From Candidatus Schekmanbacteria bacterium (GTDB lineage Bacteria; CSSED10-310; JACPHN01): a stretch of DNA of 32,515 nt. The translations under genes and the position numbers were made by a program. Position 1 is the first letter of the stretch, and each line of letters starts with the position of its first letter. Under the pieces are notes generated by a model. That model had not been told where the DNA came from and searched no databases. It was given only the letters and a program-made list of their open reading frames with translations. Below, piece after piece: positions 30,954-32,515 of this stretch. The stretch covers positions 1-32,515 of the forward strand of contig JACPHN010000224.1 of assembly GCA_016188575.1 (NCBI GenBank). Reading direction: 5' to 3'.

Positions 30954-31097
30954 GCGAATCTACTATCACTGGCCACTCTGCATAGCGGCGAGTGTGGTCG
31001 CACCCCACCTCTCACACCACAAATCGATGAATGATCATGTTTTTTTGCACGCGTGCTAACACCGGGCCCAAGTGGTACGTGGTCTGGAAGGTGACCC

Positions 31098-31337
31098 ATG
31101 CCTCGAAAGGGCGCATCCCGGTGGGTTCGCGTGGCAACCGCTGGGCCGACGGCGACGCGGTCGACTTCAAGGTGCTGCCGCTCCGCATGGAGGCCGAGCT
31201 TGTCGCGCAGCTCGACGAGACGCGCGGGCGGCTCGGCCTCGAGAGCCGCGTGCAGCTTTTCCGCCGCTCGCTCCCCCGCGTTTCTCCTCGAGGCGGGCGA
31301 GGTCCGCGTCGCCCAGCTCTTCGCGCCCGAGGCGTGA
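31098..31337 (+). pseudogene. Ribbon-helix-helix (CopG-like) gene with two compensating indels
   Basis: ATG 31098 has GGAAGG 6 bases upstream. After MPRKG the sensible reading moves to another frame: RIPVGSRGNRW, then FKVLPLRMEAELVAQLDETRGRLGLESRVQLFRRSL, a typical ribbon-helix-helix DNA-binding pattern. At a C5 run (31270-31274) it returns to the first frame as AFLLEAGEVRVAQLFAPEA and stops at 31335-31337. One missing G near 31108-31110 and one extra C in the C5 run would explain both shifts. Corrected length is about 79 aa. Either the gene is dead or the sequence has two homopolymer errors. As written, the first frame alone gives an Arg/Ser-rich nonsense protein across the middle. Confidence 0.65.
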
Positions 31338-31341
31338 CCGC

Positions 31342-31545
31342 ATGGGTGACGAGTACGAACGTCGCCGCCTGGCCGAGTGGCAAGGGGCCGAGATGGCCCG
31401 AGCCACCGGCCGGGCGTACCGCATCGACCGCGATCGATTGGACACCGCGAGCCTGCGTGAGCTGCAGCGGTTGGTGCGCAACCTCGACGGCGAGCACCGC
31501 ATGGCCCTCCAGCGCGCGCGGCTCTGCCCCTGGCGCACGCCCTGA
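31342..31545 (+). CDS. 67-aa charged protein of unknown function (island gene)
   Basis: Starts MGDEYERRRLAEWQGAEMAR and is rich in Arg and Glu with helix-forming sequence (LDTASLRELQRLVRNLDGEH). No family recognised. It begins 4 bases after the stop of the ribbon-helix-helix gene, with GAGG upstream, so it is likely co-transcribed with it. Codon use is like that of a real gene (high third-position GC). Ends WRTP at 31545. Confidence 0.6.
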   Translation: MGDEYERRRLAEWQGAEMARATGRAYRIDRDRLDTASLRELQRLVRNLDGEHRMALQRARLCPWRTP

Positions 31546-31675: not shown

Positions 31676-31885
31676 ATGACCGACGAGCTCCTGACGATGA
31701 AAGAGGTCGCGACCCTCCTCAAGATCGGGGAAAAGACCGCCTACACCATGGCCTAGCGAGGCGAGCTTCCGGGCTTCAATGTCGGCGGGCAGTGGCGCTT
31801 CAAGTGGGCCGACATCGATCGCTGGATCGAGGATCAGAAGGCCGGCGCCGGCGGCAAGAGGGAGGACGACCCCGATGTCCGCTGA
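31676..31885 (+). pseudogene. Excisionase-type HTH regulator with in-frame amber codon
   Basis: The full frame is 69 codons: ELLTMKEVATLLKIGEKTAYTMA, TAG, RGELPGFNVGGQWRFKWADIDRWIEDQKAG. This is a small MerR/excisionase-family winged HTH, with the recognition helix before the stop and the wing after it. TAG (31754-31756, codon 27) replaces what is usually Gln or Lys and is one base from CAG. Everything after it stays in frame to TGA at 31883-31885. The stop overlaps the next start region (ATG 31875). Such HTH genes often sit just ahead of defence operons as regulators. As written only a 26-aa peptide is made, unless the amber codon is read through. Confidence 0.8.
31718..31745 (+). other. HTH helix region of the interrupted regulator
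   Basis: Encodes the KIGEKTAYTM part, helix-turn-helix turn and recognition helix of the excisionase-type protein. It is retained ahead of the amber codon. Confidence 0.4.
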
Positions 31886-32515
31886 CGTCCTCCACGCCAT
31901 CCGCGACCGCGTTCGGGAGGTGGCCGCCGAGCGGCCCTACCACCAGCTCGTGCTCGTGGTCGGGGACCTGAAGTCGGGCAGGACGACCGCTCTGCGCGCG
32001 GCCGCCGCGGAAAGCACGTGGGCCTATCTCGGGTTGGGTGCGGCCCTCGCCGAGCGCCTCCTGCACGTGCCGACGCGCCAGCGCCCGGCGGTAGTCCAAC
32101 AGCTCGCCGAAGACGTTGCGCGCGAGGCCCAGGGCGACATCCTCGCCATCGACAACATCGAGCTGCTGTTCCACCCGGACCTCGCCGTGGACCCGCTCCG
32201 GCTGCTCCTCGCGCTCTCACGCCACCGCGTCGTGGTCGCGACCTGGCCCGGCACCCTCGACGGCGCGACGCTCACCGACGCGGAGCCCGGGCACCCGGAG
32301 CACCGCCGCGAACCGCGCCCTGCCTGCGCCATCGTGACCCTTCAGAGTGTGGGGCAGGCTTCCCAGCCTGCCCCGGGGTTGACAGCAGTGTATTTTCGTG
32401 ATAGACATTCGTCGCCATGGATGTCTCGCTCACGCCCGGAGAAGCAGCGCGGATATTGGGAATCTCTGTTCGGACCTTGCACCGGTGGGACAAGGCCGGG
32501 AAGATCCGGTGCGAG
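31875..32515 (+). CDS. brxF: BrxF-like P-loop protein of a type 3 BREX system, 3' end disrupted
   Basis: The frame from ATG 31875 stays open to the window edge. Residues 1 to about 157 match my recollection of BrxF, the small P-loop protein that opens BREX-3 loci (phage defence by methylation-guided exclusion): YHQLVLVVGDLKSGRTTALRA, DILAIDNIELLFHPDLAVDPLRLLLALSRHR, VVATWPG, LTDAEPGHPEHRR, AIVTL. The P-loop GDLKSGRT has Arg36 where Lys is expected. After AIVTLQS (about 32348) the reading enters a REP-like hairpin and then the out-of-frame start of a recombinase gene, so the native C-terminus is replaced by a nonsense tail. It overlaps the HTH pseudogene by 11 bases. The other BREX-3 genes (brxC, pglX, brxHII, pglZ, brxA) would lie downstream, if present. 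Confidence 0.7.
   Translation, partial: MSADVLHAIRDRVREVAAERPYHQLVLVVGDLKSGRTTALRAAAAESTWAYLGLGAALAERLLHVPTRQRPAVVQQLAEDVAREAQGDILAIDNIELLFHPDLAVDPLRLLLALSRHRVVVATWPGTLDGATLTDAEPGHPEHRREPRPACAIVTLQSVGQASQPAPGLTAVYFRDRHSSPWMSRSRPEKQRGYWESLFGPCTGGTRPGRSGA
32351..32374. repeat. REP-like palindrome at the brxF break
   Basis: GGGGCAGGCT-TCCC-AGCCTGCCCC: perfect 10-bp stem, tetraloop. This palindrome type is common between genes of environmental high-GC genomes. It lies exactly where BrxF similarity ends. Confidence 0.7.
32379..32407 (+). promoter_or_regulatory. Possible promoter of the recombinase gene
   Basis: TTGACA (32379-32384), perfect -35, 17-base spacer, weak TAGACA (-10). The ATG follows 9 bases later without a Shine-Dalgarno, so the message could be leaderless or nearly so. 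Confidence 0.3.
32417..32515 (+). CDS. MerR-type HTH N-terminus, probably IS607-family TnpA recombinase (3' end outside window)
   Basis: 33 codons: MDVSLTPGEAARILGISV, RTLHRWDKAGKIRCE. This is a MerR/excisionase helix-turn-helix followed by the wing turn, as at the start of IS607 serine recombinases (TnpA), where a resolvase domain follows. It could also be a free-standing HTH regulator. It begins just after the REP-like hairpin that interrupts brxF, which supports a mobile element. No inverted repeats are expected for IS607. Confidence 0.6.
   Translation, partial: MDVSLTPGEAARILGISVRTLHRWDKAGKIRCE

Follow-up and report, generated by a model that had tools for sequence, protein, structure and literature searches.

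Probable remnant of a BREX type 3 operon head disrupted by an IS607-family insertion sequence at a contig end

Does the right-hand end of contig C65 carry a phage-defence operon broken by a mobile element and, if so, where does the break lie? We analysed the contig over its whole length (32,515 bases, hereafter the window). It belongs to a 9.2-Mb bin of 275 contigs that is 93.8% complete. The site of interest lies at the physical right end of the contig, which stops inside an insertion sequence (IS), 141 bases past the IS junction. An earlier note had read this site as the head of a BREX-3 locus whose first gene, brxF, was interrupted by a REP hairpin and an IS607-like element. The features that we recognize there are as follows.

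31676..31885, plus strand: helix-turn-helix (HTH) regulator gene, excisionase-type (HTH_17, 60 bits with the stop masked)
31875..32346, plus strand: brxF, all conserved positions present (NF033453, 127.9 bits; alignment with 80 relatives)
32351..32374, no strand: perfect palindrome GGGGCAGGCT-TCCC-AGCCTGCCCC, outside the IS, single copy in the genome
32375..32515, plus strand: left end of an IS607-family element, identical to the final 141 bases of contig C78, with a terminus common to the element on contig C48
32417..32515, plus strand: start of tnpA (MerR-type HTH of an IS607 serine recombinase; PF00376), 33 codons in the window

The frame opening at ATG 31875 codes for BrxF, as the earlier note had proposed. 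Its product scored 127.9 bits against NCBIfam NF033453 (BREX_3_BrxF), for which the curated cut-off is 50, and 1.1e-37 against the PADLOC BrxF model; the bin contains no other BrxF. The GC content at its three codon positions (0.82/0.48/0.92) is that of a typical coding sequence. In intact BREX-3 systems, BrxF is a component with a STAND/ORC-Cdc6-like ATPase fold and is counted as core (PMC12839542). An alignment-based scan of genome contigs returned 80 named loci with brxF, spread over many phyla, and a single-sequence scan returned none; a search in plasmids found no BrxF. Aligned with these 80 relatives, the protein extends as far as the natural C-terminus (...AIVTLQ), thereby indicating that brxF was not cut mid-gene. 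The claim that the IS interrupts brxF consequently needs amending: the element does sit at the 3′ end of the gene, but all conserved positions are kept. Beyond the natural C-terminus, relatives carry variable tails, mostly of 0-20 residues. Here the frame has no stop of its own: it continues across the palindrome and into the IS until the contig ends, and the 157-aa product previously ascribed to it has no stop codon to end it.

The protein nevertheless departs from its relatives at positions that are rarely changed. Its Walker-A motif reads GDLKSGRT in the metagenome consensus, an arginine replacing the lysine required by GxxxxGK[TS], which is kept in 78 of the 80 relatives. Among 38 near-invariant columns (at least 90% conserved), 10 are altered, this lysine being one of them, which gives the second highest count of altered columns among 81 sequences (median 1); a handful of relatives diverge to a similar extent. 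Judged from sequence, this pattern suggests that BrxF is under relaxed constraint or decaying, yet the frame is open and has a strong coding signature. A 2026 review places BrxF among the inactive STAND NTPases (PMC12839542), a grouping that contrasts with the Walker-A lysine found in 78 of 80 sequences (L030-L109).

The HTH gene overlaps the start of brxF by 11 nt and lies ahead of it, so the unit opens with the HTH gene and not with brxF. At least 20 of the 80 loci have an excisionase-type HTH gene directly ahead of brxF, which makes such a gene a recurrent component of BREX-3; its fold and place in the unit predict that it regulates the operon. In the metagenome consensus, an in-frame TAG occupies positions 31754-31756, codon 27 of 69, a codon that specifies glutamine in the closest relatives and in a paralogue on contig C257. 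The HTH gene is broken independently of the IS. The earlier note's "broken at its first gene" has to be amended on this point. Further upstream, positions 31031-31545 hold small genes of no assigned identity; on visual inspection one of them seems to be frameshifted, with a continuation in another frame near 31275; none of the frames tested in this interval matched a PHROG. No tRNA was found near the brxF locus, and a sequence search for a solved structure gave no match.

The MerR-headed recombinase start described previously was borne out. The tnpA frame starts with ATG 32417, scores 40.3 bits against the MerR model PF00376 (cut-off 28.2) and shares 59% identity over 27 aa with the TnpA of contig C48, which has MerR and Resolvase domains. 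Contig C78 finishes with 141 bases identical to positions 32375-32515, preceded there by an unrelated flank that ends in ...TCTGTATCAT and lacks the palindrome, and the diverged IS607 on C48 starts with the same GGGTTGACAGCAGT. Because this second copy on C78 has a different flank, the left edge of the IS is placed at 32375. A k=141 assembly graph leaves a common terminal 141-mer where two places enter one repeat, from which we infer the same edge. The junction is CCCC/GGGG in the window and CAT/GGGG on C78, with GG present. IS607 inserts at a GG target without target duplication (PMC6188088), which fits the CCCC/GGGG junction. The IS lies at the 3′ end of brxF, ahead of the place of brxC. In relatives, the start of brxC mostly falls between -3 and +60 nt relative to the stop of brxF, so the IS occupies the place where brxC should begin. 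The element thus resembles known IS607 elements (serine-recombinase TnpA, usually with TnpB) in its MerR-type TnpA start, its G-rich junction, its left terminus in common with the MerR and Resolvase element of C48 and its two copies with different flanks, a likeness drawn from 141 bases that include neither the catalytic domain nor tnpB nor the right end. On C48 (L134), the related IS607 runs from about 445 to about 2,870 and disrupts a gene of propeller-like repeats; the TnpB frame of this element is in two pieces.

Between brxF and the IS lies the palindrome, which is exact at 32351-32374 as the earlier note had it, with perfect arms of 10 bp and a loop of 4 nt. Perfect stems of such length number 3 in the 32.5-kb window, and other contigs have 0-2 in every 20 kb, making it unlikely that chance placed one between brxF and the IS, although the number of stems compared is small. 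It is not part of the IS, as the copies of the IS left end on C78 and C48 lack it, nor is it a regular feature of the brxF-brxC junction, where none of the 80 relatives has a similar hairpin. The absence of a T-run 3′ of the hairpin excludes an intrinsic terminator. A resident REP family is likewise excluded: the genome holds one copy, seven genomes of the same phylum hold none, and the exact copies found in four viral contigs all have one common flank that differs from the one seen here. The designation "REP hairpin" is accordingly unsupported in this genome.

Could the palindrome nonetheless be a REP element that served as a landing site, drawing the IS607 into the locus? We regard this as improbable. 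A perfect hairpin does abut the IS, and like a REP it is short and GC-rich. Related palindromes (GGCAGGCT-loop-AGCCTGCC) form a high-copy family of 84 copies in genome G359, and one in genome G368 (L019:14618) marks the beginning of a Y1-transposase (PF01797) frame that is found some 12 kb downstream of brxF in a BREX-3 locus where that gene looks damaged. ISs residing in REPs are also known (PMC8450116). However, REPs usually exceed 100 copies per genome (PMC2817692), so that a palindrome with one copy here and none in the seven phylum genomes lacks the main mark of a REP as given there. Moreover, the other two left ends of the IS lie outside palindromes, GG suffices for IS607 (PMC6188088), and the palindrome may just as well belong to the native tail of brxF, a stretch that varies among relatives. 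It is possibly a stray REP-like hairpin or, alternatively, part of that native tail.

Elsewhere in the bin, searches for PglZ-3, BrxC, PglXI and BrxHII turned up only genes unlinked to brxF. No PglZ-3 scored above cut-off in this 93.8% complete bin. The sole BrxC homologue is on contig C67 (PADLOC 579 bits, 35% identity); this BrxC/DUF6079 protein (L024:14733-18104) scores 562.9 bits against PF19557 and has an intact P-loop. Its gene lies outside any BREX operon, with a PilZ-like gene on one side and, following it, transaldolase and PGI-type sequence, so that it does not supply what the C65 locus lacks. A full-length PglXI methyltransferase of 885 aa with DPPF motifs (PADLOC 1031 bits) is coded on contig C227 (L137:9557-12214, about 21.5-24.2 kb of the contig); seven genomes of the phylum gave only weak PglXI matches. 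This pglXI is an orphan outside any BREX operon and adjoins a glycosyltransferase-like gene; it does not continue the C65 locus. BrxHII queries matched only scattered SNF2 helicases in the bin. Several large SNF2-helicase frames resembling BrxHII were seen on contigs C122, C161, C226 and C197, and methyltransferase matches on the first three; these regions are probably further defence islands.

Our best reading of the contig end is the head of a BREX-3 operon that has decayed to a remnant and into which an ordinary IS607 has inserted, and we consider it likely that C65 carries the inactivated 5′ end of an operon that comprised the HTH gene, brxF and, originally, brxC and the rest. In favour of this reading are the identity of BrxF, the HTH-brxF-brxC order in relatives, the TAG of the HTH gene, the altered columns of BrxF, the left edge fixed by C78 and C48, and a bin with neither PglZ-3 above cut-off nor any brxC but the unlinked gene. 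The nonsense codon truncates the regulator. The G-rich site where the IS607-family element inserted is at the 3′ end of brxF, just ahead of where brxC starts in relatives. The brxF frame enters the IS without a stop, and BrxF has lost its Walker-A lysine along with other near-invariant residues. The insertion would have uncoupled brxF from the downstream genes and, given these lesions, the locus presumably no longer gives phage defence. The IS itself would behave as an ordinary IS607, with a serine recombinase, a GG target and no target duplication. Compared with BREX type 3 (brxF, brxC, pglXI, brxHII, pglZ, brxA), the locus is alike in a BrxF above the curated cut-off and in the HTH gene ahead of it, as in the relatives counted above; unlike that system, it retains the head only, with the other operon genes unlinked, a stop in the regulator and arginine for the Walker-A lysine. 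The locus is a further instance of already known kinds, BREX-3 and IS607, and the defence-gene remnant is ordinary and probably dead. It is a further example, from a phylum with sparse sampling, of how a defence system of several genes decays through a nonsense mutation and the insertion of an IS.

Rather than being dead, the BREX-3 system might be otherwise whole, the IS607 merely separating its head from an intact block on a missing contig, and perhaps be partly expressed. The contig does end inside the IS, a single contig missing from the incomplete bin could carry the whole block, and brxF retains its full conserved length. We consider this rather unlikely, as the bin has neither PglZ-3 over the cut-off nor a linked brxC, the regulator carries a stop and BrxF lacks the Walker-A lysine. 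Far less credible is a dispersed BREX-3-derived system in which the brxF of C65, the brxC-like gene of C67 and the pglXI of C227 act in trans.

Finally, identification of the HTH gene as MAD1, and hence of the locus as a methylation-associated defence system (MADS) instead of BREX-3, can be virtually discarded: with its stop masked, the HTH product scores 74.7 bits against NCBIfam MAD1, which is below the curated cut-off of 80, BrxF is a BREX-3 marker, and HTH genes ahead of brxF in relatives themselves reach that cut-off (L034:9808-9984, 88.6; L036:9785-9997, 80.2), one in Bradyrhizobium preceding a clear BREX-3 set. The MAD1 model is therefore not specific to MADS and does not separate it from BREX-3; since it fires on BREX-3 HTH genes, defence annotation can be misled. 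The paralogue of the HTH gene on C257 (L027:13493-15710) is a close one, with 79% DNA identity over 102 bases, and precedes other genes, one of which looks AlbA/Schlafen-like by eye.
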